Below are positions 8,239 through 45,912 of a DNA stretch of 64,000 bases, one piece after another; position 1 is the stretch's first letter; every line of letters begins with the position of its first letter. The notes under the pieces are model-generated. The model did no database searches. It saw only the letters and a list, made by a program, of their open reading frames with translations, and was not told where the DNA came from. Origin of the DNA: Armillaria gallica (taxonomy: Eukaryota > Basidiomycota > Agaricomycetes > Agaricales > Physalacriaceae); contig JBANDB010000007.1 of assembly GCA_037576215.1 (NCBI GenBank), positions 3,875,001-3,939,000 of the forward strand. Reading direction: 5' to 3'. Position numbers and translations under genes: made by a program.

Positions 8239-9624
8239 CAGCCTTGCATGCTAGATTTCTACTTAAATAGTGTCAGTTGTAAAGATTCAATTTCTCAGGA
8301 TTATATGGTATATTAGTCAGCAAGCCAACTCTTGACATGATGACATCATCAGAAAATCCAGCAGACCTAGGAATTGAACCCAGAATCTTAAAAAGATTTA
8401 TAACAATATCACATGACTTTTCCAAGCAGACATGCTAACCACTGTACTATACTGACATTATATATATATGTAATCATCACTCTATATGGCCTCCCTCTCT
8501 TAGATTTATAATATCCCAATTGGGCCCTCCCTTTGGTGCGCTTTTTTTTCCTTATTGGGCTGGTCACATCGGCCCATCAATTGCACCTAGAATTGGCTCT
8601 CCCATGGCATTGATGGCATCAATATCAGGCCATTTTCAGACAAAATTCGCATTTTGGCTCATTTTGGGCTTCCTCAGGCTACTGGGTGGGTCAGGGGATG
8701 GTACTAGTATATGCCTAAATATAAATAGCATAATAGCGAACCCTCTGCTGAGGTATGGGGGCCCTGGGGAGGGGGTAAAATAGGTAAAATAGTGAAAAAT
8801 AGCAGAAAATCACCGAAAATTCGCGTTTTGGGGATACTACGCGCATCGGATCGCTTCGAAAACTTGACCAATGAATTTCCTGACCTTGAAAACCCCAAAA
8901 CGGCCCCTCTACAGTACATGTGGCGCATTTTATGGCTAGGCATAATCAGGAAAATTGGATTTTATGGTGCTGTGTACATTGGATCGCTCTGGGGATGATA
9001 CCAATCGATTTCTACACTATATAAACCCTAGAATACATCTTCATTTGCTATATATGACCACCGGAATGCGATAAAAAATGGGGGATTGGGGGGGAAACAC
9101 AGTCTATTTTGTTTTCTAGGCATCGCGTCGGTCTGGGGACATCACCAATCGATTTCTCGACCTTTGAAACCCCAAAAAGACTCTTGGTTACATTTATGGG
9201 GTCTCAGGAACGATGGAAATAATGATGTAACAGTTTAGGAGGAGCACATGGGGAAACTCACATTTCTGAGCTTCGGAAAACTTCGGAGTTGCTGCCAATG
9301 GATTACTTGACCTTTAAAACCCCCATAAAACCCCAGGTACACATTTCAAACCTTTGAAATCCATGGTAAAAAAGGTGATAGTGAAAGTATGCAAAATACC
9401 ATATATCTCGCATTCTTGAGTGTTGGGGAACATGATTCTGGTATGAAATACACGATATATATTGTATAATAGTGTATACAAAAGACTAGGATGATCCGAA
9501 ACGTATTGGCAGAGATATAAGGAGATCTTTCGGAAAAAAAAGGAGGAGCACCCCCCAGATTTCGATGTTCTGGTTATCCTATGGCCTGGGGACTATCAGA
9601 TTCAGATTCCTGAACCTAAAAAAC
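8239..9624 (+). repeat. D1 left arm
   Basis: It is the reverse complement of 9768-11151. Arm coordinates sum to about 19392 throughout, showing almost no indels. It carries a tRNA-like block near its outer end. Confidence 0.85.
8359..8459 (-). other. tRNA-like block, D1 left end
   Basis: This is the minus-strand copy of the block at 10933-11033, with A-box-like and B-box-like motifs. It reads outward from the element. It is not a functional tRNA, since acceptor arms do not pair. Confidence 0.45.
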
Positions 9625-9767
9625 CCCAGAATCAACAATCATCCTTGGGGTTTATGTGTCAAAACTCCGAAGTAATGAGTGTGCTATTAGTTATGCACAA
9701 AGATATACTGTGTGCACAGATATTGCACTATTGAAAATGACCCCCAGGGATGATAGATGAGTCTACT
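9625..9767. other. D1 central spacer
   Basis: This is a single-copy loop between the arms, with no coding signal. The D2 spacer near 54640 is the same sequence in the opposite orientation and about 30 bp shorter. Confidence 0.6.
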
Positions 9768-11151
9768 GTTTTTTAGGTCCAGGAATCTGAATCTGATAGT
9801 CCCCAGGCCATAGGATAACCAGAACATCGAAATCTGGGGGGTGCTCCTCCTTTTTTTTCCGAAAGATCTCCTTATATCTCTGCCAATACGTTTCGGATCA
9901 TCCTAGTCTTTTGTATACACTATTATACAATATATATCGTGTATTTCATACCAGAATCATGTTCCCCAACACTCAAGAATGCGAGATATATGGTATTTTG
10001 CATACTTTCACTATCACCTTTTTTACCATGGATTTCAAAGGTTTGAAATGTGTACCTGGGGTTTTATGGGGGTTTTAAAGGTCAAGTAATCCATTGGCAG
10101 CAACTCCGAAGTTTTCCGAAGCTCAGAAATGTGAGTTTCCCCATGTGCTCCTCCTAAACTGTTACATCATTATTTCCATCGTTCCTGAGACCCCATAAAT
10201 GTAACCAAGAGTCTTTTTGGGGTTTCAAAGGTCGAGAAATCGATTGGTGATGTCCCCAGACCGACGCGATGCCTAGAAAACAAAATAGACTGTGTTTCCC
10301 CCCCAATCCCCCATTTTTTATCGCATTCCGGTGGTCATATATAGCAAATGAAGATGTATTCTAGGGTTTATATAGTGTAGAAATCGATTGGTATCATCCC
10401 CAGAGCGATCCAATGTACACAGCACCATAAAATCCAATTTTCCTGATTATGCCTAGCCATAAAATGCGCCACATGTACTGTAGAGGGGCCGTTTTGGGGT
10501 TTTCAAGGTCAGGAAATTCATTGGTCAAGTTTTCGAAGCGATCCGATGCGCGTAGTATCCCCAAAACGCGAATTTTCGGTGATTTTCTGCTATTTTTCAC
10601 TATTTTACCTATTTTACCCCCTCCCCAGGGCCCCCATACCTCAGCAGAGGGTTCGCTATTATGCTATTTATATTTAGGCATATACTAGTACCATCCCCTG
10701 ACCCACCCAGTAGCCTGAGGAAGCCCAAAATGAGCCAAAATGCGAATTTTGTCTGAAAATGGCCTGATATTGATGCCATCAATGCCATGGGAGAGCCAAT
10801 TCTAGGTGCAATTGATGGGCCGATGTGACCAGCCCAATAAGGAAAAAAGCGCACCAAAGGGAGGGCCCAATTGGGATATTATAAATCTAAGAGAGGAGGC
10901 CATATAGAGTGATGATTACATATATATATAATGTCAGTATAGTACAGTGGTTAGCATGTCTGCTTGGAAAAGTCATGTGATATTGTTATAAATCTTTTTA
11001 AGATTCTGGGTTCAATTCCTAGGTCTGCTGGATTTTCTGATGATGTCATCATGTCAAGAGTTGGCTTGCTGACTAATATACCATATAATCCTGAGAAATT
11101 GAATTTTTACAACTGACACTATTTGATCTGTTAAAGTAGCATTTATAGGTG
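9768..11151 (-). repeat. D1 right arm
   Basis: It is the inverted copy of the left arm. The outer end read inwards is CACCTATAAATGCTAC, the same as the D0 and D2 termini. Confidence 0.85.
10933..11033 (+). other. tRNA-like block, D1 right end
   Basis: It has an A-box-like stretch (TAGTACAGTGGTTAGCATG), a possible anticodon region (TCTGCTTGGAAAA), an extra AT-rich stretch, and a B-box-like GGGTTCAATTCCTAG with a pairable T-stem. The ends do not pair as an acceptor stem, so I call it tRNA-derived (SINE-like Pol III promoter) and not a tRNA gene. Similar blocks occur in D0 and D2. Confidence 0.45.
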
Positions 11152-17040: not shown

Positions 17041-18495
17041 TCAGGGTTGGAGCAGAGGCACTGCGCCAGGATCTGCAGAAGTGGCACCATCAGGTGAGCC
17101 AGCTTTAGTACCAGAAGCAGATAGAGCCCCTTGGATTCCAGAGAGCTCGCTGAGAAGGAATGTGTGCTGTCTCTCCACAGCAAAAATGGTATGATGGAGC
17201 ACAATGAGGTCACCCAGGACGGCACTCTTGAGCTGGGCCAAGAACTCAGGCGACTTGATGCGAAGACCGTCCAGGAATGCCCCTTGTGGAGACAAGCGAA
17301 GTGCCTCACTAAGGGCAGCATTTCCGCTCTCCCTAGAAACTAAAAGGGGACAATGAGAAAAGAGATAGACAAAAGAAAAGAAAAATGCACCAGTGCTGAC
17401 CAGACCAAGAACAGAGGCCACCCGTCTATCAGATCTGCCATGAGGACGAGAAGAATAGAACTCACAGGCTGAAGAATATGGGAAGGCATGACAGGACCAC
17501 TTAGCATTGTGGTCGGCATCCTGGTAATGGTGCTTGGTAGGAGAAGACTAGGAAACTGAGAGTTAGCGTGATAAGTTAGCAAGCACGCAAGAAGAAAGAA
17601 CTTACAGTGCCAGCAGCAGGGCAATCTAGAAGAGAATGATCATTCCCTCCACAATGGAAACAGGCAGAGGGCTTGTCCTAAAGCGAGGAGCTTTTAGTGT
17701 GGGGGATATCTTGAGGAAAGACAAGATATCTCATCTTGGAAGACTCCTTATGTTTCTCACCAATGACAGTGTCATCAGACTTGCCTTTAAAAGACTTGGT
17801 AGCCTTGGGAGGAGCTGGTTTGGAGTTATCGTCGTCAACAGACATCTTGAGGATACCATCAGTTAGCATGCAGAATAGAGACATTTGAGGAATCTAAGAA
17901 AGAGTGTACTTTAATGGACTCAGACTCAGAATCAGAACAGTCGGCTACCTTGTCAGGCTCCCTGTCGGCGGATTTGGAACCAGAATCAATGATGGCAGGA
18001 GACCTCTTGAGGGCACGAGCTTTGCCTTTGCTGTGAGTAACTGGAGTCTAGAAGAAACCAAATAAGTATGAAGAAGAAAGATAAAAGAAAGGGAAATACA
18101 TCGTGGTGAGGACCGGTAGGGGCAGAAGCAGGAGGACCCGACTCGACGACATGCCGTTCAGACTGGACCCAGCCAGTAATGGTCTTCAAGACCTTGTGAA
18201 TAGGCTGTTTCGAGGTGCTGGTATGAAACTTTTTCTTGATGGTGCTGCGAGCCTTGAAAATGATCTCCTTGAACTCCTTGTCCTTGATGAGTTCGTCCTT
18301 GTGAGCCTTGAGATACTTCTGCAAAAACGAAGTTAGTACCACTACAAAAGGTAGCAAGCTTGCTAAAAAGATGCACAGTATACTCATGGAGCTGAGCCAT
18401 ATTATCAGATGCAGTAACGCTGAGGTTCTGGCAAAGCTGTGTGATAATGGCCTTGATGGCGACAAAGGGCATAACAGAAGTAGCAGAGGAAGACA
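17041..18495 (-). CDS. A1 antisense gene 2: CCHC zinc-knuckle protein
   Basis: This is a spliced gene opposite in direction to gag/pol, just downstream of integrase. The ATG (18495-18493) begins MSSSATSVMPFVAIKAIITQL. An intron of about 65 nt has donor GTATAC, branch TACTAAC and acceptor TTTGCAG, joining ..NMAQLHE to KYLKAHKDELIKDKEFKEI. Further exons: a Lys/Arg-rich helix (IIFKARSTIKKKFHT), a Ser/Asp-rich part, MLTDGILKMSVDDDN.., then a CX2CX4HX4C knuckle CFHCGGNDHSLLDC at 17662-17621, a Cys/His-containing exon (KWSCHAFPYSSACEFYSSRP), and a C-terminal helical exon ending PLLQP and TGA (17043-17041). A2 conserves the exons and introns, though it is decayed. Nucleic-acid binding is likely; the role is unknown. 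Intermediate splice sites are my reading. Confidence 0.6.
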
Positions 18496-19067
18496 TATTG
18501 GAAAGGGTTGTAGCAGAAAGTAAGCTAGAACACTTGTACAATCAAGATATATGGTGGTGGAATATACCAGCGAGCTCTCTCAGCTTTTATACCAGAAGCA
18601 CAGCAGCTACAGCTAAATAGGTATATTGAACCAAGACCATTCATAACCTAGAAGAAAATAAATTTCTGACAAGTATGCATCTCGAATTTAGAAAATAACA
18701 ATGGATGCGACTAACTCAGAAATTGATTGGAAATCTAAGATAAATTTAGTGATGGGTGGTGTTGATGACTGGGGACAGTCAATTCTTTTTAGTGTGGGGG
18801 ATATAGTAGGTATATGCAAGTATACCTTTATACCTTTTAACATTTAAAGTGGAAAATTAGGAAACAAATTTTCGATTCTATGAATAACACACAGAGGAGA
18901 TTGATCAGGCCAGGTCAGGGTCGCTTAATGATGACAGTGATTTAGAAATGACACCTGATGCTGAAAAATGAGAATAAAAATGGAGACAAGTGGCAGACAG
19001 ACTGGTATGAAACAAAAGAAAAAGCATGCCAGGACCCTGCAAACTAAAGACAAGAAAAACTGGCTAT
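18496..19067. other. Spacer between the two A1 antisense genes
   Basis: No coding signal was seen. It should hold the promoter of antisense gene 2; TTTTATACCAGAAGCAC lies near 18590. A motif 'gtgggggatata' near 18793 recurs at 17698 as 'gtgggggatatc'. The site corresponding to the H3 insertion in A2 is intact here (aatGGATGCGACTAAC, near 18702-18715). Confidence 0.4.
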
Positions 19068-20136: not shown

Positions 20137-23100
20137 CTACTTGGAAGCTTCAGATGTGCCCTCGCTGTCACCGCCCTGAGTACCTGAAGGACCAGCTGCC
20201 AGCTCATCCTCACCCTTGTCCCACATTGAAGTGTCGTTGTTGGAGAGTGTGTACTCAGGACCTTCAGGAAGGTTGAGAGACAGGCCAAGAGAGTGCCACA
20301 GACCGTCGTCAACGATGAAGCTGTGAACTTCACAATAGACGTGAGACAGGTCATTGATGAGCTTGTTGCCACCCTCAGCACTGGCAAACTGATCCAAGCT
20401 CTCGGCAATGTTGCGAACAACACGATTGCAAGCACAAAGACGACCCCAGTAGAGGTAGTCAACATGCTCCAGCTCACAGTTGATACTGTGGAGCTGCGTG
20501 ATGTTATGACAAAGAGCTAGAAGAAGAGTTCAGTAAGCAAAGGCTAGGAAAGAAAACAGAAAGAGGAACATACCAGGGATGTTATACCACGAGAACATAG
20601 TGAGATGCAAGGTAATATCATGCATCTTGCGAGTGGTGTAACGAGTGGAACATCCTCCATGATGACCCTCCTGACACTGATCACAGTCAGCACCTGGGAA
20701 CCAATTGGTCCAGGTACAGTTGAGTTGATGATAAGCACATGGGAGGCAGGTCTTCTCATAATGCTAGAAAAGGGAATTAGACCTGAGAAAAATAAAAGAA
20801 ATAGCGAGCTCACATCGGGAGCATGCACGTAGTAAGCATAACGAGAAGAACGAGCACCAAATGTGCTGTTCTTGTTACCATAATGAACAGGGCTAGGAGA
20901 AAATCAGCTGGAAAAAGAGAAGAGGAATAAAGAACTTACTCAAAGAACTCGTCGGGCGCAGTGATTAAATCCTCAAAACGGTAGTCCTCTAGCTTGGCAC
21001 AACTATTATGCCTATCAATGGGAACACCCTCTTGATCAGGATTTTGCATGTGGGTGAGCATAGCAGCCAAGAAATGCTGCTTTGGGTGACCAGAAAACAT
21101 CCAGTTGGAACCTTGAGGAACGCTAGAGGCAGCAGACTTAGTAGTCTTGCAGAAAGCCTTTGTAGAAACCTTCTTGGGAGAAAACCGAGGCTTCTTGACA
21201 GAGGGACCAGTGACCCCAGAACCACTGGCAGTGCTAGGAATAGCGGCTGCTTTTGAAGCAGCGACACTAGAACAAGTTGATTTGGAAGGGCCAGGACCAG
21301 AAGAAGCAACCACATCAGGAGTGCGCTTCCTCTTCAGAGCTTTCTTCTTCTTCTGAGGTGGCTCCTCTCGAGCAGAAGAAGTAGCGACAATGGTGGGAGG
21401 AGAGGGGGTGTGAGCAGGCACAGGATTGGGGGCAGCGATCTTACCCTTGCCTTTACTCTTCGTCTTCTTCCCCTTCAGCTGAACTGCAATGCTATCAGCA
21501 GGAGCAGAGGCCTCCACAGGTTTGGAAACAGAGGGAGAAGCCTCAGGTGAAGGTGAGCGCACGACCAGAGAACCAGAATGGAGTGGAGCACCAGTCACAG
21601 GGTGATAGACCCTGGGAGGCGACGGCAGCACATCCACATTCATGAAGTCGGTAGGAGAAGGAACCTCCTTGATGAAGGCAGACATCCAGTCCTCCTCTGG
21701 AAGAGGAGGTGGCAGAGTCGCAGGCATGGGAGGCTCCTCATCTATGGGTGACAAGGGTCAAACTCCAGTGAAGTCACCTTGTCCCAAAATGGGAGGCAAG
21801 GGCAGCGTTGCAAGAGAGGATTGGGGCGCTGATGCATGGAACGCGAGGAAGACCCAGGCATGTCGAACTACAAATACATGACATTAGAAAAGAGGAAAAG
21901 AGGAAAAACTAGAGGGAACTCATGACATCCAAAGGGTGCTCAGTAGTACCCGATGGTAAGGGCTGAGAAAGAAGAGAGTCAGCTAAAAAGAGATGGCTGA
22001 GAAGGGCAACTTACATCAAGGGGCGTAACCCTAGAGTGAGGAGCTAGGAAGGAACAGAGACCAGGAGTTAGCAAGCTCGCTAACTCTGGCAGAGAAGGAT
22101 CACTAACTTGTAATATCACCTGCCGGCGTGGTAGAATCGGCAGAGCTAAATAAGAAACAAGTTAGACAAAAGCAGAAAGAAAACAATGCGATGACTTACC
22201 CTGAAGTATGAAGCTCTACACCAGAACCAGGTGTGAGTAGAGCTTGGCGCAAGTCCTGGATGGAACTGGCCATGTCTTGAAGGCTGTGACTGAGGGAGGT
22301 ACTCTGAGCAGCCATAGTGTCATGTTGGGAAGGTGTAGCGGGAGCAGTACTCGTTGGACGACGGTATAACCCCAGAGGCTTAACAGGGGTGAATGAATTC
22401 CATAATGGAGGGGCCCGACGATTGGTGAGTGGGCTCAGCAGCGAAACGGGAGAAGACAAGACATGCCCCAAAGCATGGACATGAGGATAATCATGGGGAA
22501 TAGGGGAAATTTCAGGTGAATTAACAACTGGAGGCACCAAGGAAACTGGAGTCCTTTGAGGGTGCATGCTTCGAGGAGGAAGTGGCGGAGTGGGAGTAGT
22601 TGAGGAGGAGGCCTGAGGACGCACAGGAGTAGAGGGAGACTCCTTCCTGGGGCTTTCAAAGATGATGACCTCCTCGTCCTCTGCAGCACCAGGGAGCAGA
22701 GTAGGAAACTGGTCAAAAACGTAGCCAGGGAAATCCTTGTTGTTAGTAACTAGACCTGGACGAAGTGTAGCACCCTCGGGGATGGCGTGCTGCAGGAGAT
22801 AAGACTCCATGGGAATTGTGGGGTCATCCATGTTGAAACCATCCTCCCCAGGGAAGGACACGTTGGGGGACAGACAGGTCAACACCTGTGCAGACAGAAG
22901 GAAGGAGTCAGAAAAGATGGAAGAGGGAAAAATTAGGGAGCTCACATGAGAAGGGCACACCTCAGGCATCATATGAGCGATAGTGTGATGCCAGTCATCG
23001 ATCCTCAACTGGCAGGGCAAAGCGTCGTGGACATGTGTCACCCAGTTGTGGATAGACATGCTGATGTGAGAGTCAATCAGGGTCTCATGCTCGAGAGCAG

Positions 23101-23387
23101 CAACATGGGGTGCCTGGGCAAGAACTGTGAATTAGCCAGCTGTGAAAGAGAAAAGACAGAGAAATACACACTAAGTGCTTATAAACCTGCCTCAACAGGT
23201 CAGCAACTTCTTTGTTGGAGTACTCATTCTGGTTGCACCAATAAGGCATGAGGAGGTCCATGACAGCACGGTAGGGGCAGTAGTAGACGACAGGGTCGAA
23301 CTGCACGAAGTACTCGTACTTTGGCATTTCATTGTCCTCGGGTATGGGTGTCAACATCTTAATAGGCAGTATGAGTGGCGACGACAT
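20137..23387 (-). CDS. A1 antisense gene 1: Zn2Cys6-like protein, multi-exon
   Basis: The ATG is at 23387-23385 (MSSPLILPIKMLTPIPED). Introns I can place: 23167-23125 (GTATTT..CACAG), 22945-22886 (GTGAGC..CACAG), 22199-22146 (GTAAGT..TTTAG), 22119-22044 (GTGATA..CCTAG), and one starting at 22014 (GTAAGT); phases agree across these joins. More follow at 20940 (GTAAGT) and after YYVHAPD. Exons encode a Pro/Ser-rich low-complexity middle, basic NLS-like tracts (QKKKKALKRKRTPD, GKKTKSKGKGK), an IDR..EDYRFEDLI block, then CX2CX6CX10CX2CX7C (CLPCAYHQLNC..CDQCQEGHHGGC, 20750-20650), and a conserved C-terminal exon (AESLDQFASAEGG..CEVHSFIVDDGLW) ending EASK and stop at 20139-20137. One TGA (near 21757) may be decay. 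The Cys spacing fits the fungal Zn(II)2Cys6 DNA-binding consensus. Probably nuclear; target unknown. Confidence 0.65.
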
Positions 23388-23715: not shown

Positions 23716-26700
23716 TGATGAGCCTCCAGGCTCTGTACGCTCAGAATTCGTGGATTTTGTCTGCTAATTAACGCTATTGTCCCTTCAACGGCCTTTCAGC
23801 AAACCAATGATTGCACACACATTGATACCACTTTCATCCTATGGCAACCACTCCTTATGCGCTTTGTTATCCATCTCATCTTGCCACACATCATAATTGC
23901 TGTACCTCATCATGGCAAGGCACCGTAGATCAACAATCATCCCAATATGGAATTGACGCATCACTCAGAAGCATCTAGTTGACATGCTCATTGATCACTT
24001 AATGAAAATGACGTGATTGATGCGAGTACCCTCCCAGCTACGGCAACTACAGACCATGTTTACTAAGGCTGTTACTTCACCAAGGCCTCAAGAAAACGTT
24101 ACCCCACGTGTACTCCTCAGCACGACGACTATCACTCAAGTAATCCGCAGCTAAACAGCACCTAGCGATCCGTTGATGTGCTCGGTAACGGCGAGTGGCA
24201 AATGGACTAGAGGCTGGCAATGAACACCAACAACACTAAACCAATCACTAACTCTACACTTATCACCAATGTATTGAATTCGGGTGTTTTGAGTACGATA
24301 GAAGCACTCTGCAGACTTCAATAATCAAGGAAAGTTGTTTAAAGACGTTTTATTTCGTTACTAGTGAGCTATACAAGCGTACTACTCACACTAGTGGGGT
24401 TTGTAAGACACAATTGGATGAATAGTGACTCGACTTGAGCTACTGCGCTCGCTCTGACTGGGACTGCTTTGAACTAGTGGCTCTCTTGGCCCTGTAATGT
24501 CTTACAAGTGAATAAACACTTGACTAGTCGCTTTCTAGGCAGACTAGTGGCGCTCTTGGCCTAAGAATAATACTTTAAACTTCGAGAACTTGCTTGAACT
24601 AACTTCGAAACACTCTTGGCCTTTGCAGGACACAAAAGATTGCTCTAAGACACTTCTATTCACTCAATGCTATGGGTAACTTAGCGACTAGTAGCTGCTT
24701 CGTCGAGGTTAAGCACAAAAGCCTTTAATTGGGGCACTAGATACTGACTAGTAGGTCACAATTGCGGGGATGGCTTGCCTGAGCCGCGTGTGCACCTATT
24801 CTACTACTTATATACTGACAAACAAGGTACGATCGAGATATAAATAACTGACTAGAGGGGTATTATTGATAAGGATTTCTTGGCTAGTCACGAATAATGG
24901 TGAATAATCACACAATAGTCGGTCTAGAAACGATCGCTTGCTGACTAGTGAGCCTAGGAGCTCCGCTAGCGGTTGTATTCCGTGTCCTGGGCCCAGCGAC
25001 GCTCCACTAGTGCCAAGGATAAATGACTAGCCAGGCGAGCGTGCCTGTAACAGCTGTCGATCGTGATCGAAGGCGCAGCCCGGCTATACTAGCACCGATC
25101 GCAATGGATCTGTATCGCACTCGTTGGATCTGCCGCAAGGTTAACCCATTGCTAATTCATTTCTAAGTTCTGTTTTGAGATTGCCACGTGACTAGTTAAC
25201 CTGACTTAAGCGTTTATGCCCAGAGCGGCTCGCTAGTGACCAAACTTCACGAGATTTGTGTCCTCTGCTTCTTGTTTGGTGCGCTAGTCGCGTTACTTGT
25301 CCACTAGTGGCTGTATTCACTTAGCCCTGTTAGCATTCAAGTCACTAGTATGACCGGCTGGTAGATTTAACCCACTAGTGGTATCGCATCTAAGTCCTGG
25401 CTCTACTAGTCGCATACTAGTCTAACTATCAGCTCGAAGCCTCAGCTATAGTCCTCTAAGTATCACTAATGTAAGATAGATATGCAATAGTATTATTATA
25501 AAATCGCAAAATCTAGGTGTGAACGTGTAGACGGCGTATCACCGTGCATTGCTCAATGACCCCATACGGTTCACATCCATACATGGCAACATTGACAAGT
25601 TGCTGTTACTTTAGAAGATGAAGTACCATATGTTTCCTCCGATTTTTACAAAGCCAAGGCCTTACAGCCTTACTAAGTCTCACATATTTACTCTATTTAT
25701 AAATTCGTACTTTTAGTATAAAAACTAGCTAGAAAACATAGTTCAAGAGCAGTTCATCTCTAGTTGACCCCAGACTACGTCAATTATCGTCTCACACTAG
25801 TCTATCACCAGTAAACCACGTTTATTCACCATTCTACGGCAATATACAGTTTACCCCAGCATATTCTCGATTGCACGTCGACTCTTGAAGCTCACCAGAG
25901 TTATTCCATGGTTTTTAACTGTGAAGAGTCCTTCGCTATGTGCTTTTCGCTCTTAACACTATTGGTGCATGCTCATACTGTGCCAATACATGATCGCCGC
26001 GCTATACCTCACCCACATTATCTTTTATAGGCCATCATCGTTTCACTTTCACCATCGTTATCGTTGCCCACTTGGGTAGTCTCAGAGCAGACTTAGGATC
26101 AGTTTCAGCCAGTTTTTGTATAGTATCAGTCCCTCGAGTGGACTTGAAGGTTAGTTTGACATAGGATAGGACCGTTTCAGTACCAGACAAGTTTCGACAT
26201 CGACTCAGCACTATCACATCGTATAGGACCAGTATCGCCACCAGTTTGTGTAGTTCCATGTTTTCTCTTGCCAGCCCACCCTCAGCATCTCGTTCCACGT
26301 TTATTTCGCCACTTGCAGTCCCCACACCATTTTCTCATTGCCTCGCTCATTCATAGACTATTGCCGACTGTTTAGTCTATTCTCCATCATTCACCCTGCT
26401 CCGATTACCGTAGAGCGATATTTTCTAGTCTCACAGCACATTATCTCATACGGATTCATGGTATTCACGTCATACCCATTTTCGTTCCCTCTTACTTAGA
26501 GAGAACCCTACTGGCTTATAGCCTTCGCATCTAGTACTCAACTACCAAGCAGTACTACTTCACAGACTTAAAGTCACAGTGTATTCTTGCATATAGAGGA
26601 ATTGTTCTACTGCACGGAGGTGCCCTGAACCACTCACACACACGATTGCCTTGATTGCTGTGCCACTACGTTAATTATCCAATCTCATTCAGAGTTGGTG

Positions 26701-26732
26701 TTGCCGTTGCCATGGAAGTCTAAGGCCCATCA
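23716..26732 (+). repeat. F2: 5' LTR, interrupted by solo LTR H1
   Basis: TGATGAGCC..CCCATCA, net about 1645 bp after removing H1 and one TSD. It aligns with F1, F4 and the F2 3' LTR. TATA-like 'agtataaaaactagc' lies near 25720. CpG retention is clearly higher than in its own 3' LTR at 43231. Confidence 0.85.
24174..25541 (+). repeat. H1: solo LTR, 1368 bp
   Basis: It starts TGATGTGCTCGG and ends GGCGTATCA, with perfect 4-bp TSD CCGT (24170-24173 and 25542-25545). The empty site is present in the F4 LTR (gatccgtgcatcgctc, near 30013). It is the same length as H2 (37225-38592). No internal region is present. It contains fifteen exact ACTAGT palindromes by my count. Confidence 0.9.
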
Positions 26733-29548: not shown

Positions 29549-31237
29549 TGATGAGCCTCCAGGCTCTGTACGCTCAGAATTCGCGGATTTTGCCTGCTAA
29601 TTAACGCTATTGTCCCTTCAACGGCCTTTCAGCAAACCAATGATTGCACGCACATTGATACCACTTTCATCCTACGGCGATCACTCCTTACGCGCTTTGT
29701 TATCCATCCCATCTTGCCACGCATCATAATTGCCGTACTTCATCACGGCAAGGCACCTTTGATCAACAATCATCCCAATACGGAATTGACGCATCACTCA
29801 GAAGCACTCAGTTGACGCGCTCATTGATCACTTAATGAAAATGATGTGATTGGCACGAGTACCCTCTCAGCTACGGCAATTGCAGCTACGGCAACTACAG
29901 ACCGTGTTTACTAAGGCTGTTACTCCGCCAAGGCCTCAAGAAAACGTTGCCCCACGCGTATTCCTCAGTACGACGACTATCGCTCAGTAATCCGCAGCTA
30001 AACAGCACCTAACGATCCGTGCATCGCTCAACAAAAACCATACGGTTCGCATCCATACGCGGCAATGTCGACGAGCTGCTGTTACTTTAGAAGACCAAGG
30101 ACCATATGTTACCTACGATTTTTACAAAGCCAAGGCTTTACGGCCTTACTAAGTCTCGCATATATACTCTATTTATAAATCCGTACTTGTAGTATAAAAA
30201 CTAGTTAGAAAACGTAGTTGAGGGGCAGTTCATCTCCAGTTGACCCCAGACTATGTCAATTATCGTCACGCTCTAGTCTATCGCCAGTAAACAACGTTTA
30301 TTCACTGTTCTACGGCAATATACCGTTTGCACCAGCATATTCTTGATCGCACGTCGACTCTTGAGCTCACCAGAGTTATCTCACGGTTTTAACTGTGAAG
30401 AGTCCTTCGCTACGTGCTCTTCGCTCTTAACACTATTGGTACACGCTCATACTGTGCCAATACGTGATCGCCGCGCTATACCTCGCCCCCGTTATCTTTT
30501 ATAGGCCGTCATCGTTTCACCTTCGCACCATTGGAGTTTTTACAGTTTCACTTTCGTCATCGTTATCGTCGCCCACTTGGGTAGTCTCAGAGCAGACTTA
30601 GGATCAGTTTCAGCCAGTTTTCGTATAGTATCAGTCCCCCGAGTGGACTTGAAGGTTAGTTTGACATAGGATAGGATCGTTTCAGTACCAGACAAGTTTC
30701 GACATCGACTCAGCACCCTCGCATCGTATAGGACCAGTATCGCCACCAGTTTTCGTAGTTCCACGTTTTCTCTCGCCAGCCCACCCTCTGCACCTCGTTC
30801 CACGTTTATTTCGCCACTCGCAGTCCCCACACCGTTTTCTCATCGCTTCGCTCGCCCACAGACTATTGCCGACCGTTTAGTCTATCTTCCATCGTTCTCC
30901 CCGCTCAGACTATCGCCCAGCGACGTTTTCTAGTCTCGCAGCATGTTTTCTCATACGGATTCATGGTATTCACGTCATACCCGTTTTCGTTCCCTCTCAT
31001 TTCGAGAGATCCCTACCGGCTTGAAGCCATAGCATTTAGTACTCGACTACCAAGCAGTACTACTTCGCAGACTTAAAGTCGCAGTGTATTCTTGCGTATA
31101 GAGGAATTGTTCTACTGCACGGAGGTGCCCCGAACCACTCGCACACACGATCGCCTTGATTGCCGTGCCACTACGTTAATTAACCAATCTCATTCCGAGT
31201 TGGTGTTGCCATTGCCATGGAAGTCTTAGGCCCATCA
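29549..31237 (+). repeat. F4: solo F-family LTR, CpG-rich, 1689 bp
   Basis: TGATGAGCC..CCCATCA inserted inside F2 gag-pol with perfect 4-bp TSD GCGC (29545-29548 and 31238-31241). It is the F LTR copy with the most CpGs, so it is the youngest or least methylated. No internal region or second LTR is adjacent; it probably formed by LTR-LTR recombination of a complete insertion. Confidence 0.9.
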
Positions 31238-33634: not shown

Positions 33635-35656
33635 GCTCTATCCATTACCAAGTTATTCAGAAAAGATGTTAGTTTCAAATTCAAATCAGCAGAGATTGCC
33701 ACACAAGAAGATCTTAAAGATGCAGTTAGTCAGCCCAGCATTAAGGCCCCTCAGTTACACATCAACCAGAGCTGTTATACTTGCTGTTGATACAGGACCT
33801 TCCGCAGTTGGATACTATCTAGCACAGTGCAACCCTGTCAATCCAAAGATATGCTATTTCACTAGATTCAGTTCAATCACTCTTAATGAATGTGAGTGTG
33901 GATATTCTCAAGCCAAGAAAGCGATATTTGGACTATACCACATACTAGGAGATTGCAAAATTTATCTTATTAGTCTTCCAATGTTTATTGTTGAAGTAGA
34001 TGCAAGTGCTATCAAGGGAATGCTCAAGAACCCTGATATCGCACCTTCAGCAGCAGTTAACTGATGGATTATTGGCATTCTATCTTTTCATTTCATTCTA
34101 GTCCATGTACCAGGCTTCAAGCATGGTCCAGATGGATTATCATGATGCTCACCCCAACTAGGAGACCCTCCTCCACCTGAAGACAGCATGGAAGACTTCT
34201 TACACATTCATTACAGGCTTATGCATTTTATTAATTCAACTTCACCTATGGTTAATTCACCAATCAAGTTAATTTAAGTTCTACAACAAGAAGTTTCTGT
34301 AGATTCCATGGAAATCATTCCTTACTTGACAGTTCCTCATACCGCAAAGCAACAATGTCTAGATGAATAGCTAACACATTTATTGCCATAGCATCTATAT
34401 CTCAAGAGACCTGCAGGATTCGACGATATTGCATATGTGAAATTCATGAAATATGCTGTTCATTTCTTTGAGAGACAAGGAAAGCTATGGCGCAAAAACA
34501 TAGATGGGAGACACCAGCTTGTACTGTTCCCCGAACATTGCATTCAAGTGATGATGTCTTGTCACGATGATGTTGCTCACAAGGGCTTCTATGCAACGCA
34601 TGTGCTAATCAAGGAATGTTATTGAAGTATGATATTTCCTGGTTCATAAGAATGTGTCATCTATGCCAAATCTGTCAAACCCAACAAATTTAATACCATT
34701 ACATCGTCCAAGGCAGATTTTCACTCAGTTATTATCCAGAATTTCGTTGCTTGTGCAAAGAAACAGCATGAACCTTAGGAGAATGGATTTTCAAAGATAT
34801 CTTATGCCATTGGGGATCCTTAGTTGAGATCATTACTGACAATGGATCCACCTTTGTTGCCACAATCAATTATTTGAGCAAGAAGTACCATATCAATCAC
34901 ATTCGTATCTCTGGTTATAACTCCAGAGCCAATGGAATTGCCGAAAGACCACACTTCGATGTCTGTCAAGAACTGTTTAAGGTGTCTGATGGTGATCAAA
35001 AGAAGTGGAGTCAAAACACCTATTCTGTATTTTAGGCAGACCAAATAATGATCAACAGATGCATGGGTTGTTCACTATATTTTGCCACAACTGGGATGGA
35101 ACCCCTTCTTCCAATAGACATAGTTGAATCTACATGGTTGATGCCACCACCAAACAATATCATCAGTACCACATTATTAATTGCACACCAAGCCATTAGT
35201 CTTCAAAAATGTTTTCAAGATCTCAAGCATTTGAGGTCTAAAGTCTATGAAGCTAGAAGAAATGCTGCAGTTAAATTCGAGAAGGACCACAAATACTCTA
35301 TCAGAGACTTCAACTTCCAGAAGAGAGATTTAGTTTTGATGCACAACAAACAGATAGAGAAGGCTTTAAATCATAAAATGTGCACCAGATATTTGGGCCC
35401 CTTAGTGATCTTGGGGAGGAATAAAGGCCATGCATATCTCCTTTGTGAATTAGACGGTTTGACCTTTGCAAGACCAGTTGCCACATTTAAGCTATTGCTG
35501 TACTTTGCCAGGAAGAAGATTGATATACCAGATATCAATGCAATCATTGATGTGCCACCTGTGTGGATCAATGGTCTCTTTGCATCATCAGATGATGGTA
35601 TGCTTGACAACCTTCCAGACTTAGAAGGAGTGCATAATGAAGTGGAACTTGCTTAA
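33635..35656 (+). pseudogene. pol: F2 RNase H and integrase
   Basis: RNase H (AVDTGPSAVGYYLAQ, NECECGYSQAKKAIFGLYHIL, EVDASAIKGM, VHVPGFKHGPDGLS) is reached by a frameshift near 33765. The integrase zinc region is degraded (CHDDVAHKGFYATHVLIKE then CHLCQICQT). The DDE core keeps D in ITDNGSTF and Glu in ANGIAERPHF, unlike A1. The C-terminal domain (RDLVLMHNKQIEKALNHKM to LEGVHNEVELA) ends at TAA 35654. Many TGA, TAG and TAA codons break it. CpGs are scarce through this stretch. Confidence 0.8.
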
Positions 35657-35969: not shown

Positions 35970-38900
35970 CTAGCTGCCTTTAGAAGGACAGTTAGCATGA
36001 CCACAATGACCCCACCCACAGCAAGGACAAAGAGCTGGTGCAGGATCAGGCTCCTGCAGGTTAGCATTGCAGTTAACGTGATTGCAACCCCAACCACATT
36101 CTTTAATGTACTGGGCAGCCTCATTTTTACCTTTACCCTTCTGATCCTCCTTTTTGCCCTTGTTCTTTGAATGGTTCTTTTTACTGTGGCCATGACCTGA
36201 ACACTGGTGCTTCTTCCTCCACCAAGGAACATAAGTTTTGTGAGAAGAAGACATAGCATGATTGTCAGTCCTCATCTTGGCTGCAGTACTAGCCTCTGCT
36301 TCCTCTTGAGTGCACATCTCATTGAGTTTAACTGTAACAAGATGGTAATGTTGGATGAGGATGTGGTGAAGCTTCAGGTTTAAGTAGATTTCACAAGTGT
36401 TGGATTCCAACTGTTGGAATTTGCCCCAACATAGGCCTTCACATTGTCGACAATCACTTTCATATGAGGGTCATCACCAATGACACTCAAAACTTCTATA
36501 AGTGCATGGAATTAGTAACTGCAGACCAGAAAAAGTGGAAGACAAGAACTTACTAGCTCCATAAGGATTGGTGTTGATGAGTTCATTAATAATGTTGAGG
36601 ATATCTTAATCATCCTCCAGATGGGGATCCTTGAATGGCATCAAAATTATTTGCCAGTCAGGAAGGCCTCCGATGCAGCGGCAAGTAACAGATTTACTAC
36701 AAGCATGGCAGACCAAAGACAGCCCAGCAAAAGTACACTCAGTGCTCTCAAGAATGCAAGTCCCACAAGGACAAACAGCTTTAGATTCATGTCAATACAA
36801 AAGAAAATGGGGATTTAAAAGAAAAATGTACCTTGGCAGAGCGAGCAGGACATCAATGAGCAGGATGACTCAGAGTACCAGAGTAATAGGCACAGAAAGT
36901 GTTGCCATATTGAAGGTCAGCCTTGTTGAAAGAGCAGTGATACAGATCAGTGATCTTCTTGCCAATCTGGATGGTGTCCTTGAAGGTACCTTCTTTTTTG
37001 GCAAACTGCTCAATGAAGGCACTGGAAGGAGTGACAACCAGAGATGGCATCTAGATCATACCAAGTCAAATTAACATGATGCTATGGTTTTAATGGATTC
37101 AAAGCATGTACCACCCAATCTGCAGAAGAGACCATAGAAGGAGACATGGCACAAGTTTCCCTAGCAGGAGTTTCCTCCTCCAATGCCATGTCAGCACCCT
37201 GAGAGGCAGAAGCAGATATGGCATTGATACGCCATTTACACATTCACACCTAGATTTTGCAATTTTATAATAATACTATTGCATATCTATCTTACATTAG
37301 TGATACTTAGAAGACTATAGCTGAGGCTTCGAGCTGATAGTTAGACTAGTATGTGACTAGTAGAGCCAGGACTTAAATGCAATACCACTAGTGGGTTAAA
37401 TCTACTAGCTGGCCATACTAGTGACTTGAATGTTAACAGGGCTAAGTGAATACGGCCACTAGTGGACAAGTAACATGACTAGTGCACCAAACAAGAAGCA
37501 GAGGACACAAATCTCATGAAGTTTGGTCACTAGTGAGTCAATCTGGGCATAAACACCTAAGTTAGGTTAACTAGTCACGCAGCAATCTCGAAACAGGACT
37601 TAGAAATGAATTAGCAATGGATTAATCTTGCGGCAGATCCGACTAGTGCGATACAGATCCATTGCGATCGGTACTAGTATAGCCAGGCTGCACCTTCAAT
37701 TACAATCAACAGCTGTTACAGGCATGCTCACCTGGCTAGTCATTTATCCTTGACACTAGTGGAGTGTCGCTGGGCCCAGGGCATGGAATACAACTGCTAG
37801 CGGAGCTCCTAGGCTCATTAGTCAGCAAGCAACCATTTCTAGACCGACTATTGCATGATTATTCACCATTATTCATGACTAGCCAAGAAATCCTTATCAA
37901 TAATACCCCTCTAGTCAGTTATTTATATCTCGATCATACCTTGTTTGTCAATATATAAGTAGTAGAATAGGCACATGTATAGCCCAGGCAAGCCATCCCT
38001 GCAATTGTGACCTACTAGTCAGTATCTAGTGCCCCAATTAAAGGCTTTTGTACTTAACCTCAATGAAGCAGCTACTAGTTGCTAAGTTACCCATAGCATT
38101 GAGTGAATAGAAGTGTCTTAGAGCAATCTTTTGTGTCCTGCAAAGGCCAAGAGTGTTTCAAAGTTAGTTCAAGCGAGTTTTTGAAGTTTAAAGTATTATT
38201 CTTAGGCCAAGAGTGCCACTAGTCTGCCTAGAAAGTGACTAGTCAAGTGTTTATTTACTTGTAAGACATTATAGAGCCAAGAGAGCCACTAGTTTGAAGC
38301 AGTCCCAGTCAGAGCAAGTGCAGTAGCTCGAGTTAAGTCACTATTCATCCAATTGTGTCTTACCAACCCTGCTAGTGTGAGTAGTATGCTTGTATAGCTC
38401 ACTAGTAATGAAATTAAACATCTTTAAACAACTTTCCTTGATTATTGAAGTCTGCAGAGTGCTTCTATTGTACTTGAAATGCCTGAATTCAATACATTGG
38501 TGATAAGTGTAGAGTTAGTGATTGGTTTAGTGTTGTTGGTGTTCATTGCCAGCCTCTAGTCCATTTGCCACTCGCCATTACTGAGCACATCAGTGTCTGA
38601 AAACAAAGGCATAGTCTGAACTTCCTTGAAAGGAGTGACATTGGGAGTGAACAGAGCAGAGGACATCTGGATATCATTGTTGATATGGTAATGCAAGGGA
38701 GGGAAAACCTTCAGAGCATCCAAGATTTGGTTGCCGGAGATGGAGTACTGTCCACTGACAGAAAACTTGAGACAGTCAGACTCGATCTTGAGCATGGTGT
38801 CTATGGAAGTTATACTTAGAGATGAAGCCATCAACAACAGCTTCAAACATCTTAAAGAATTCTTCCTTGAGAGTGGATGGATAGTGTGCCTTGATCTGGC

Positions 38901-39094
38901 ACTATTCAATGTCAATTAGAGCATGAAAACCTACACAGGAGCATGGCAATTTACCTTGACATGTACCACCTCATCAAAGTAGGTGGTGAGATGTAACAAT
39001 TGTGCATTAGGCTGAAGAGGACTTGCAAGATGGCATTAGCACACCTGACAAGGGAGATGAGAGATGGAATAGCTTGAGCAGCAGAAGTAGACAT
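35970..39094 (-). pseudogene. F2 antisense gene 2: Cys-rich protein, split by H2
   Basis: The ATG at 39094-39092 begins MSTSAAQAIPSLISLVRCANA, in the same position as antisense gene 2 of A1. The exon at 38915-38597 (..DCLKFSVSGQYSISGNQIL..) is cut by solo LTR H2 after DT; the frame resumes at 37220 as AISASASQGADMALEEETPARE. Later exons: AFIEQFAKKEGTFKDTIQIGKKITDLYHCSF, a Cys cluster CPCGTC..C..CHAC..CRC (36771-36676), and a Lys/His-rich C-terminal exon (36262-35970) with CGWGCNHVNC and CPCCGWGHCGHANC. The Cys arrangement differs from the CCHC knuckle of A1. Several zinc sites are likely. No known family is recognised. Broken by H2 and by C-to-T decay. Confidence 0.5.
37225..38592 (-). repeat. 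H2: solo LTR, 1368 bp, inverted
   Basis: It is the reverse complement of H1 and exactly the same length. The flanks are GCAT (37221-37224) and GTGT (38593-38596) on the plus strand. These do not match as they stand, but both derive from GCGT by CpG decay on opposite strands. It interrupts F2 antisense gene 2. Confidence 0.85.
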
Positions 39095-40012
39095 GGCGAT
39101 TCAGTGAAATGCAATGATTCTGAGGACACAACAATGAAAAAACATTCCCTTTATATGAAAACTCAGAAACAACTCATCTCATCATATTTACGTGAAGATT
39201 TCTACCAGGCTTGGATCATATGCTCAATGGAACACAGCATGAAATCAAACCACATGTTTGCAACTTTCAAAACTCAGTGGCATTCACTTTCAAATTACAA
39301 GTCTTCGAACCTCAGTTTAAATCTTTTCGGCCTTGGCCAGCAAAGATTTAAAAAGTTTAGGGGGAAGAGACATAGTCCCCATGTTGTTCATAGGACAAAA
39401 ACACACATTCTTTTCAACATGACATTTTCATGCAAAAAGTAATGAAATCATGAAAGAAATGACCTTTCAATCTACGAAATACTTTATGAAGAACTATGAA
39501 AATATCATTTCTAACAATAAAAATACCACACTCCACCATCAATTTGACTATACACAATGGAGATATCACCAAAATCATACTTCAGTAATGAAAACTCATG
39601 ACCAGTAACACAAAACATGATGAAACCAAAGGTCAACAGTGCCAGAGCCATGGCCATCTATATTCCTTATCATTTTAATTTCACAGCAATTCAGACTTGG
39701 AGAAATTATTTCAAGAAACAGCCAAAGGTGGACAATCATGTGAATCCTAGCACATGAGCCCCAGCAGCTGAAATTTCTCTAAGTCCAAATTTACTGAAAA
39801 TCACTCAAAAATCTTCAAAAATCACAACAAAACAGAGCAAGAAAAAGTGATCTTATTTATTTTCACCCTCATTGGGGTGGCGACATTCAACACTGTGTAA
39901 AAATATTGCCCGTAGGCATGCAATACAGATCTACATATAAAATGCTTAAAAATATTAGAGTCTTGCTCCCAAGAGATGATGCCTGTTGATGACCAGTCCC
40001 CAATTCCGCAGC
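39095..40012. other. Spacer between F2 antisense genes
   Basis: AT-rich, with no gene seen. Its position corresponds to 18496-20136 in A1. It presumably contains the promoter of antisense gene 2 and the terminator of antisense gene 1. Confidence 0.35.
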
Positions 40013-43000
40013 TCAGCCCAACCTACCCTTCTTCTTTGTGGAGGGCCTAGCAACACCTTCAGCAACATCATCCAATGCATCATCCTCACCAACATTCTTG
40101 TCATCTTCTTTGTCAGCCTCAATGAAATCCAGACAGCCACAGAGATGAGATGCTTGAGCATGAATACTATCAGTATGAGCAAAAATGCTAAGGCCAGCCA
40201 GGTATTGCTGAGTGATTTTGGAGATGGTGATGTTATTGGCCTTGATAGTGTTGAGGGCTCCCTTGAAAGTGTTGACCATGTCTACAAAAGAAGACAAAGT
40301 TAGCATGATGAAACAAACAAGGAGAAATATTACCATAGCCCTTGGGTTGATAGTGCTCAACAGAGTTTAGCACAGCAACCCCATTGACCTTGCACAGGAG
40401 TCTTGAGTAGTGACAATGCACACACTTGATGGTGTGCATCAAGAGCTTGCAGCACTAGGTACCAAGGTGTTTGCAGTGATCACAAGGGGTGGTGTACTGC
40501 TCAAAAACTCGTTAATTAAACCCAAAATTTGAACAGAACAATACGTACTCATTCACCTATGAACAGTGTGACAGACTTATTCCAGTAACTCTTGTCAACT
40601 TTGACGAATTCACCAAAATCCCTGTCAACTATGAGCATGCCAATGCTCTTGACACCATTCTTTACCACCTTTGCGGAAGAAGGGACTTTCTCTCCAAACC
40701 CTCCACCACTAATGCCTAAAGTAACAGGTAGCAGTTTCAAAGGCTCTGGACCATGTTTATGGACCACCTTGGTAGCCACAGCAGCTAAGAAAAAGGAGCT
40801 AAAAAAAGGATAACATGGGTAGAGAGAAGGAAGGACTCACATTTGTCATCCTCAATCACCACAGTCTCTTTCAACTTGGGTTTTTTAGGGGCAGGTTTAT
40901 CCTTCACCTGTCTAGTATCCTCTTCAGTCCTCATGTGTTTACAAGGTTCCTTGGTCTCTGTAGCCTGGTCTTTACCCTTTGTGTCCTTTTTCTTCTTCCT
41001 GGTCATGTCAATCTTGGATCCTTGCATGGTCTTGAGGTATGCGGCATCAGGATTGAAAGGAGAACCCTGCAAGTGAGCAGAGCGATGGAGATCCTGACTT
41101 GTAGCAGGAGGAGCAATGGGCCTAGGAAGGAAAATAGTAGGATGAGACTCAATGAAATCTCCAGTAACCTCATCAAATATGAACAAGATTCTTGGTTCTT
41201 GTCAGAAGTGGTGAGCTAAGTTCATAGAAGGAGGACTCAGCTCCTCATCATCACTTGGTGTCTCATCCTTGTCAAGGTCCATTGGTTCTCCCTGAAGAGA
41301 GTTAGGCTTGTTATTGTCCTGGCTTGAAAAATGATCGGCCAGGCCATCATCTTCAAAGAGGGTCACCCCATCAGTCACCAAGTCCTCATGAACTTCTTCT
41401 TCTTCATTGTCTGTATTAAGAAAAAATAAAGGCTTGTGGACACTTGAAGGAACAATGACATTATCTTCTTGAAGGGGACCAAGAGTAGGGTCAGGACCTC
41501 AAATGATGTTAGGATGAGCCATGGCTAAAAAATAACAAGTCAGTATAGTGATCAACCAAAGAGGTTAGAAGTGCCTACTGTCAATGGCAAGCGCACAAGC
41601 AAAAGCCTTAGTCAACACCTCAGATTGAGTAGTATTAATCAGAGGCCCGGTCTTGAACTGTTGAGCAGGTTTGCTGTGCAGAGGCGAGGACCAATCCTTT
41701 TGAAAGGTCTTGGTAGAGTCAAAAGGACTAAAAGAAGAAAATTGTTAGCCACAGAATTGATGAGTCATGTCAATATAAACTCACCCAGAATTGTCATTGA
41801 CCAAAGATTTATCAAAACCAATAGATGTCACCTTTCCATGGATCATAGAGGATTGGCCAGTTTTCTTAGCAGTAGAAGGAGCCATAAACCAAGGCAATGT
41901 TGACATGTGAAGAGCTCAAAGTTCAAATGTTGGAGAATGAAGTAATAGCTGCAGGATTAGCAGCTGCAAGATCAAGATTGGGAACTGAGCTAGCAAAACT
42001 TAAAGTACAAGGAGGCATTGCTCTCTGAGGAGTAATAGGTGCTGCAGATTATTGTTTTTGAGGCACAGGTGTCTTCTCCTTCTGAGGAGGAGGCATTGTT
42101 GGCTTTGGGGCCGGCAGCAGTGTCATTGTCTTCAGAGGTGCAGGTGCTTGGACATGCAATTCTGGCTCAGGAGATGGCGAAGGAGTATTCAAAGAAATAG
42201 GACGAAGATTTGGAATGAAATACTTGTGCTGGACAAGAGGCATTAGAAAAACAGGAACAGACAAAGAAAATAACTAATGCACCACCTGATGGACCAAAGC
42301 ATTAAACCTCTCATGGGAGTTGTCAATCAGACCCTTATCCACTAGAGGCAAGCAAGCCAATAGCATGTATTCCAAGTCATTCCAATTATTCTTTTTGATA
42401 CCGGTGGGTCTTTAGAAATTCAAACAAATGACCCATTGAAGATAGGCATCAGATAGCCACTCATCAACAGCAATTGCAGAACTGTCCTTGTCAGGAGGGA
42501 ATTTGATTTTATGCTGCAGTAGGGCAGCAGCAGCCTCGTAAGAACTCAGCACTTCATGCTTGAGTGCTGGGCCATTCTTGATAATGGGAGGCTTGGCCAT
42601 TTTGCAGAGATGACAAGTGAAATGTTTGGAGGATAGCTTCACCAGCATTGAACACTGTTGAAGGAGGCGAAGGAAGAACGGAAACAACACTGAAAAACCT
42701 TCAGTAAAACTGAAGGATGTTGTCAGTATGTGTCAAAGTGGAAAGATCCATCTGTGTAACAGATGGTGTCTCAGCAAAAGGACTACTCACCTCTGAAGGT
42801 AGAGGAGGAAGAGCATCCTTGAGAAGAAAATTGATGAGCACAAAAGAAAAGAAGATGACTGTGCAAGCAGAGGGGAATAAGAGGATGAAGGCAAAAGTAA
42901 GAAAGAAAGAGAGATGAATGGAAAATTTCTCTAAGTCCAACTTGTCATGTGGCAACAGAAAGTTCTCCACTCTTTCACATGTCACAGAAGATTCTGTTGC

Positions 43001-44578: not shown

Positions 44579-45340
44579 CACCTATGAATGCTACTTTAAT
44601 AGATCAAATAGTGTCAGTTAAAAATATTCAATTTCTCAGGATTATATGGCATATTAGTCAGCAGGCCAACTCTTGACATTATGACATTATCAGAAAATCT
44701 GGCAGAACCAGGAATTGAACCCAGGATCTTAAAAAGATTTTTAATAATACCATATAACTTGTCCAAGCAGACATGCTAAGCACTGTACTATACTAGCATT
44801 ATATATTTATATAATCATCACTCTATATGATCACCCTCTCTTATATTTATAATATCTTAATTGGGCCCCTCCCTTTGGTGCACTTTGGTGTGCTTTTTTT
44901 TCCTTATTGGGCTGGTAAAATTGGCCCATCAATTGGACCTAGAATTGGCTCTCCCATAGCATTGATGGCATTAATATCAGGCCATTTTCAGTCAAAATTC
45001 ACATTTTGGCGCATTTGAGGCTTCCTCAGGCTACTGGGTGGGTCAGGGGATGGTACTAGTATATGCCTAAACATAAATAGCATAAAAGCGAACCCTCTGG
45101 TGAGGTATGGGGGCCCTGGGGAGGGGGTAAAAAGGGTAAAATAGTGGAAAATAGTGGAAAATCACTGAAAATTTGCATTTAGAGGGTGCTATGTGTATTG
45201 GATCACTTTAAAAACTTGATATATGAATTTCCTTGTCTTGAAAACCCCTAAATGGCCCCTCTACAGTACATGTGGCACATTTTATAGCTAGGCATAATTG
45301 GGAAAATTGGCATTTTATGGTGCTGCATACATTGGATTGC
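44579..45340. mobile_element. D2: left arm, outer part
   Basis: It begins at the terminus CACCTATGAATGCTAC, followed by the tRNA-like block (minus strand, near 44700-44810) and the same arm sequence as D1 8239-8985. E2 splits it within ATTGC. It is older than D1, with many transitions. Confidence 0.8.
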
Positions 45341-45866
45341 TATTATGCACATGCCGTGGACCTCTGCTTCACACTGACTTCACACACAGACTTCATCTCA
45401 ACAAATCACACCATCAGACCTCCATGGCCTCCAGCCGCTTACCATCTACTTACTCCATTTTAATATTTCATTTTCATTTCATTTTACTATTTCACATATT
45501 AAATCTAGAACCCAAATTCAGTAGCAAACAGATTTCCATTGGATTCCATCAGACTCTGATTCAGATTACCTACTCATATATATACTGTAGAATTACTTGT
45601 AGATACTCAGTTTAAATATTGACTTGGTTTAGCCAAATCTCTCTCTGACTCCAAGTCTAATCTATCGCTCTCCAAGTCCGTGGTCTCTGCTCCATTGGAC
45701 TATCCTTACTCTATCCAAACCTTCGCTCTTCATGGACTCCACTCCGCAATCCAATCTTAGGGCTTTGGCTCAAGGGCGACGTTGCTAATAGCTTTGCCAA
45801 AGCCCACACACTCCATGGCCCTCCGCTTGTGCGAGTTATCTTTGTCTATTTGGCACATCCCTAACA
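45341..45866 (+). repeat. E2 5' LTR
   Basis: 526 bp, ends CCCTAACA. The first bases are TATTATGCAC, a decayed form of TGTTACGCAC seen in E1. Confidence 0.9.
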
Positions 45867-45912
45867 GTATATTCGAACTCAACCCTTTGAGTTGAATTTT
45901 TTTCTCTAAATC

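Follow-up and report, generated by a model that had tools for sequence, protein, structure and literature searches.

A 64-kb stretch of the Armillaria gallica genome (contig JBANDB010000007.1, C7:3875001-3939000, within an 86-Mb assembly; hereafter the window) carries three families of long terminal repeat (LTR) retrotransposon, A, E and F, each with a gene on the strand opposite to its integrase that encodes a six-cysteine, zinc-cluster-like pattern. We found that these antisense genes recur at the same place and on the same strand in element copies across the genome and that they evolve under purifying selection. In family E, the spacing of inverted CGG pairs at the start of the LTR varies with the type of antisense gene. 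Our preferred explanation, held with moderate confidence, is that the genes encode element-borne proteins, predicted to be nuclear Zn2Cys6-like DNA-binding coiled-coil dimers that likely regulate transcription from their own LTRs. An earlier note, made from the letters of the window, had proposed an element-encoded nuclear regulator; our results support this reading, as something that we infer.

Six-cysteine antisense genes in the window

Zn2Cys6 domains follow the consensus CX2CX6CX5-12CX2CX6-8C. When the wider pattern CX2CX6CX5-16CX2CX6-8C was searched by regular expression in all six frames of the window, it was detected at four places, every one on the minus strand: in A at 20650-20748 (CLPCAYHQLNC-10-CDQCQEGHHGGC), in E at 52415-52504 (CGKCRTDNAAC-8-CQQCRVKKVRC), in F gene a at 40392-40484 (CDHCKHLGT*C-9-CVHCHYSRLLC, with one in-frame stop in the window copy) and in F gene b at 36675-36767 (CGTCILESTEC-8-CHACSKSVTCRC). 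All four clusters also satisfy the stricter linker of 5-12 residues, for which 30 order-2 Markov simulations of the window yielded no match. Together with the strand bias of the pattern across 74 loci, where 0 of 62 matches fell on the other strand, this rules out a chance origin. The scan recovered the minus-strand patterns reported earlier for A, E and F, at coordinates that had been accurate to about 10 bases; the fourth cluster, in F gene b, had been missed.

Element E is a complete Ty3/Gypsy retrotransposon on the plus strand at 45341-53969, as defined by self-BLAST, a boundary check and Pfam. Its LTRs lie at 45341-45866 and 53455-53969, it is flanked by a 5-bp target-site duplication (ATTGC, 45336-45340 and 53970-53974), and Pfam identifies a Ty3-type capsid, reverse transcriptase, RNase H and integrase. 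The antisense gene has two exons on the minus strand. Exon 1 (52557-53292), located by tblastn with Armillaria homologues and by its splice donor, encodes a conserved N-terminus, a long charged helix and basic tracts and contains one in-frame stop; exon 2 (51549-52509) encodes the zinc cluster, a coiled coil and an acidic C-terminus and contains three. With four in-frame stops and no frameshifts in its spliced frame, the window copy is decayed, as are the window copies of the other antisense genes, whose exon structure was recovered by tblastn with Armillaria proteins. The basic tracts that had been likened to nuclear localization signals are visible in the sequence, and a long helix is predicted where a coiled coil had been placed after the E cluster, and likewise in F. 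The gene starts had also been placed 163-330 bases inside the 3' LTR or the edge of the element. This is exact in E (ATG at 53292, LTR from 53455) and roughly right in A (ATG at about 23387, with the F LTR beginning at 23716 and A's own 3' LTR absent from the window), but not in F, where the likely start of gene a at 42600 is about 630 bases from the LTR at 43231.

In a check against the Pfam Zn_clus model (PF00172), the antisense clusters scored below its gathering cut-off. A profile search of PDB sequences gave no Zn2Cys6 match at an E value of 1, and a search of NCBIfam returned nothing useful. The likeness to Gal4/Ppr1-type Zn(II)2Cys6 factors lies in the six-cysteine spacing followed by a predicted helix, in the F structure model, whose listed matches are Zn2Cys6 DNA-binding domains, and in the inverted CGG pairs of the E LTR described below; the E structure model is of low confidence. 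Basic residues follow the second or fifth cysteine in the second half of the E cluster (CRVKKVRC) and the first half of the F cluster (CRRLGTQC). Besides the Pfam scores, the differences from Gal4/Ppr1-type factors are that the genes are encoded by retrotransposons, on their antisense strand, and that A has no such basic residues. In one of the two E gene types, E2, the linker is 14 residues long, beyond the consensus 12. The E and F profiles align their six cysteines weakly (hhalign probability 6%, E 0.0063), in line with the earlier preference for a conserved architecture over recent copying.

Purifying selection and a recurring position

Protein homologues numbered 38 for E, 9 for A and at least 74 for F, and all those with a shown name come from Armillaria. 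Among the matches listed, the automatic name 'Zn(2)-C6 fungal-type domain' is visible on nine F-type homologues and one E-type homologue. The full set of six cysteines is found in 13 of 38 E, 1 of 9 A and, among the matches listed, 37 of 74 F homologues, with fragments and decayed copies counted. In the genome, the pattern is in register at 23/30 E, 9/14 A and 26/30 F loci, with in-frame stops inside it at 11, 1 and 3 of these, respectively, so that the antisense frame and cysteine pattern noted in the window are kept in many relatives. Many copies (L009-L082) show CG-to-TG/CA changes and TGA stops, fitting decay of methylated cytosines.

We then calculated ratios of nonsynonymous to synonymous substitution (dN/dS), as medians over pairs of open copies with synonymous divergence (dS) above 0.1. 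For F, the ratio was 0.078 in the zinc exon (26/30 loci open), 0.100 in the preceding exon (27 open) and 0.140 in the last exon (22 open); for A, it was 0.102 in the zinc exon (7/14 open), 0.218 in the last exon (8 open) and 0.185 in the N-terminal exon (8 open). E exon 1 gave 0.336 (7/35 open). For E exon 2, three pairs of the E1 gene type with L017 gave about 0.08, a rough value at a dS of about 2, E2 pairs gave 0.14-0.31 (nine of ten computable), and three near-identical E1 pairs gave 0.50-0.68 from 14 to 26 changes. In all these exon sets apart from E exon 2, third positions of the antisense frame held the largest share of differences, 43-64%. Values around 0.1 and this third-position share indicate that selection acts on the protein, and the dN/dS test suggested in the earlier note came out far below 1 between diverged copies.

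To place the genes relative to their elements, the whole genome was searched exon by exon, so that some matches are pieces of one copy; the A and F integrase sets are partial, and their counts hold among the matches listed. The matches numbered 77 for E, 14 for A and 37 for F, of which 65, 8 and 33 lie 3' of a listed integrase on the opposite strand; two E matches share the strand of the integrase, and 10 E, 6 A and 4 F matches have no listed integrase nearby. After pieces were merged, 53/62 E, 8/14 A and 33/37 F places lie beside an integrase, at median spacings of 746, 3744 and 3592 bases. Most are within a quarter of the median (40/53, 6/8 and 28/33), with one F place 11 kb off. This recurrence of strand and spacing relative to integrase rules out a host gene neighbouring the element.

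Presence of the gene follows the relatedness of the integrase. Among E-type integrases, it is carried by 59/68 at 75% identity or more and by 0/34 at 34-35%. For F the figures are 26/32 at 75% or more, 6/8 at 60-75% and 0/11 at 40-60%, and for A 8/15 at 75% or more and 0/8 at 60-75%. A 3' LTR was found beyond the gene in at least 20 of 77 E matches (at least 11 also with a 5' LTR) and at least 6 of 37 F matches (at least 1 with both), these being lower bounds because about 40 LTR matches were scored per search. The genes therefore have the properties of the antisense class aORF-3R: they lie on the opposite strand 3' of integrase inside an LTR-bounded element, occur in most copies (8/15 in A, compared with 59/68 in E and 26/32 in F) and are conserved as proteins.

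Gene types and LTR-start sites in element E

The antisense genes of E fall into two types, E1, with 60-100% identity to exon 2 of the window copy, and E2, with 32-42%. In long integrase matches, the two are about equally close to the window element (E1 78-89%, n=10; E2 70-89%, n=17). When five E2 copies were compared with window E, identity was 80-83% in the LTR, 71-74% in the leader, 57-59% in exon 1, 50-52% in exon 2 and 60-70% in the 3' flank, and 89% at the end of pol in the two copies long enough. Six E1 copies showed 87-92% in the LTR and 75-91% in exon 2, with L013 at 61% in an LTR alignment that was cut short. Two divergent gene types thus sit on one common backbone. Between types, dS is at least 1.6 or saturated and not computable, which makes the gene appear older than its backbone, as after exchange. 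Rapid adaptive divergence is disfavoured as the cause, because dS reaches at least 1.6 yet the LTRs remain 80-83% identical; exchange with an older relative fits better.

The differences between types are concentrated near the LTR start. Across LTR and leader in six E1 and five E2 copies, 27 of 670 columns are fixed between types, and 13 of the 27 fall in one 40-column stretch, a clustering reached in none of 5000 permutations of the columns; among the 461 other 6/5 splits, the highest total was 13 fixed columns. This stretch is flanked by CGG-CCG inverted pairs. Zn2Cys6 dimers classically bind inverted CGG pairs, with specificity set by the spacing of the pair. In the window copy, site 1 (53529-53538) is intact as CGGAGGTCCG (CGG-N4-CCG), site 2 (53471-53480) has decayed to CAGAGGTCCA, and site 0, beside site 1 (53539-53547), has decayed to TGGAGGCTG; the spacing of site 0 is 3 in both types.

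We found that the spacing of the other two of these three sites tracks the gene type, being 3 with E2 and 4 with E1. In E2, where the segment was found in 14 of 15 copies tried, intact pairs numbered 22 at spacing 3 (0.46 expected) and 0 at spacing 4, and spacings 7 and 12 accounted for seven and five more. In E1, with the segment in 21 of 30 loci, intact pairs occurred at spacings 4 (four pairs, 0.26 expected), 3 (two), 0 (two) and 7 (three). Most of the E1 sites have been lost to decay through CG-to-TG/CA changes. With decay tolerated, 13 of 21 E1 copies had the spacing-4 form CGGAGGTCCG at sites 1 and 2 alike, 6 had it at one of the two and 2 at neither; in one E1 copy, L028, the spacing at site 1 is 3. 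Of 14 E2 copies, 13 had spacing-3 forms at both sites (the segment of the remaining one, L094, was truncated), and no E2 copy had the spacing-4 form. CGG pairs were not enriched in F LTR pieces, and few were found in A LTRs.

We propose that the antisense gene yields a nuclear, dimeric DNA-binding protein, which would act at the U3 start of both LTRs, in the 3' LTR a place 180-255 bases upstream of the gene's own ATG. In LTR replication, the U3 at the 3' end of the RNA is the source of U3 in both new LTRs, so that an adjoining regulator gene would carry its own site into both. In E, the gene and the adjoining U3 start form a linked cassette. Introns would persist in the antisense gene because the replicating RNA is the other strand. 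The acidic C-terminus leads us to lean towards activation over repression, the sign of control being otherwise open. More tentatively, fungal retrotransposons may contain exchangeable self-recognition cassettes, each an antisense zinc-cluster regulator with its own LTR-start site, with at least two specificities (CGG-N3-CCG and CGG-N4-CCG) on one backbone; copies of each type would control only their own kind, in the manner of phage repressor-operator immunity.

The main rival for the spacing pattern is passive hitchhiking, in which recombination that swapped the gene brought along the neighbouring LTR start with no recognition between protein and site. With only about 160 bases separating the ATG from the LTR start, linkage of the two is to be expected, and all E2 copies may descend from one swap. 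However, fixed differences are fewer in the leader (7/160 columns) than in the LTR start (20/166 columns, alignment positions 361-520), and E2 site 2 occurs both as CGGAGGCCG and, decay allowed, as CGGAGTCCG (L100, L101), each with spacing 3. We regard hitchhiking as possible though doubtful, and it is compatible with a regulatory role for the protein.

Two other roles for the protein were considered beside LTR regulation. A factor that anchors the integration complex at particular chromosomal sites or on chromatin, and so serves target choice and not transcription, would be matched equally well by the DNA-binding fold and basic tracts, and it would fit F LTRs, which show no enrichment of CGG pairs; we consider it unlikely, as E LTR-start sites that vary with gene type are unexpected for a targeting factor. 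Even less probable, in our view, is a nucleic-acid chaperone or packaging factor acting on element RNA or cDNA through an RNA-binding cysteine knuckle. The gag zinc knuckles of retroelements do bind RNA, and a minus-strand frame with cysteine-rich stretches lies near F gene b (35973-36470), but the spacing is that of Zn2Cys6 and not of a CCHC knuckle, and the F model matched DNA-binding domains. Finally, a role for the antisense transcript alone, with double-stranded RNA damping the element and the reading frame incidental, as proposed for plant-element antisense open reading frames (ORFs) in passages of PMC7264820, is very improbable, since the dN/dS and codon-position results show protein selection and largely rule it out as the sole role.

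Elements A and F and comparison with known systems

In A, the antisense gene spans 20140-23387 on the minus strand (tblastn and splice flanks; earlier exons and start approximate), with exon matches at 22199-22699, 20927-21802, 20814-20882, 20575-20763, which holds the zinc cluster, and about 20140-20525. A second, decayed copy was detected by tblastn at 61500-62485, also on the minus strand. An A copy on C5 has LTRs 97% identical to each other (5' LTR 3890710-3891063; 3' LTR at query 31-385) and carries the antisense zinc exon between integrase and 3' LTR. The window also contains an apparent second A antisense gene at 17041-18541 (minus), a frame with AALSEALRLSPQ whose start, MSS..VMPFVAIKA..QLCQNLS, is kept in three fetched copies (L040, L042, L044); the window scan found no six-cysteine pattern in it.

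Element F occupies about 23716-44578 on the plus strand (self-BLAST and LTR search; limits approximate), with a 5' LTR at 23716-26732, part of an integrase at 35036-35656 and a 3' LTR from 43231, cut at about 44578. Gene a (40028-42600, minus; tblastn and genome copies) was matched at about 41893-42600, 40794-41900, 40552-40785, 40326-40508, which includes the cluster, and 40028-40282. Gene b (36477-39100, minus, limits approximate) has its zinc-cluster exon at 36609-36791 and is closer to integrase than gene a. In 39 of 42 genome matches, this exon is found on the other strand beyond the 3' end of an F integrase, at a median spacing of 890 bases, and the four loci read, of which two overlap at one place, all retain its cysteines. 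Both genes accompany 29 of 34 F integrases (at least 60% identity and 500 bases), gene a being present at 30 and gene b at 32; one integrase has neither. A 1.37-kb repeat is present in two inverted copies (93%), one inserted in the F 5' LTR (24174-25541) and the other breaking gene b (37225-38592). Other repeats sit inside F as well, including a solo F-type LTR (29549-31237) between its gag and pol with GCGC on both flanks. In two F LTR-start pieces (L102, L103), the heptamer ACGGCAA was seen by eye to occur three times apiece, and it is possibly a candidate half-site of the F protein.

Elsewhere in the window, a 2.86-kb stretch at 8265-11124 is its own inverted repeat at 97% identity and is related to 44606-45341 and 53970-55411. 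Outside it, about a dozen matches above the Zn_clus cut-off, most in frames of about 173-226 residues, form two clusters at C2:6500457-6795326 and C5:5507185-5630261, apart from the A, E and F matches; they may be a locally expanded family of zinc-cluster genes or belong to a further mobile element.

HBZ of human T-cell leukaemia virus type 1 (HTLV-1), to which the genes had been compared, is a proviral regulator whose gene is also antisense, spliced and begun at the 3' LTR. It is an unrelated type of protein, and the comparison is formal, the regulatory function here being predicted. LTR retrotransposons have been known since the 1990s to carry antisense genes. According to passages of one review of the subject, the function of these genes is unknown, and they show no clear similarity to known proteins except for SMC and Transposase_28 domains (PMC7264820). 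The plant Ty3/Gypsy antisense ORFs (Grande gene23, RIRE2, Retand TRP28 and PvRetro13) share with ours the place between pol and 3' LTR, the strand and the presence in most copies; the Grande protein is nuclear, and a Retand domain is predicted to bind DNA (passages of PMC7264820 and PMC11963269). They are set apart by description, as they belong to plants and not fungi and those passages describe no Zn2Cys6-like cluster or matched LTR site. In the fungus Botrytis cinerea, brtn of the Boty elements is also an antisense gene between pol and 3' LTR (passages of PMC7264820, PMC8365987 and PMC5987419), although of an ascomycete element and likened by description alone. Among the top-ranked papers of the open literature searched, we recognised none that reports a fungal LTR retrotransposon with a Zn2Cys6 gene on its antisense strand, or an LTR site matched to such a gene. 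Passages on Armillaria ostoyae, an outlier for fusion proteins of host and transposable element (PMC10799480), and on the A. borealis genome (PMC7487993) do not contain the word 'antisense'.

Judged from sequence, several of the fungal antisense genes described here have a recognisable DNA-binding architecture and are under clear purifying selection, and one family has a candidate target in its own LTR whose spacing differs between gene types. With them, the old question of what such genes do becomes approachable by binding and reporter experiments. Our results also suggest that, among the unnamed proteins predicted in Armillaria with a 'Zn(2)-C6 domain', some are encoded by retrotransposons; counts of transcription factors in the genus would be inflated as a result.
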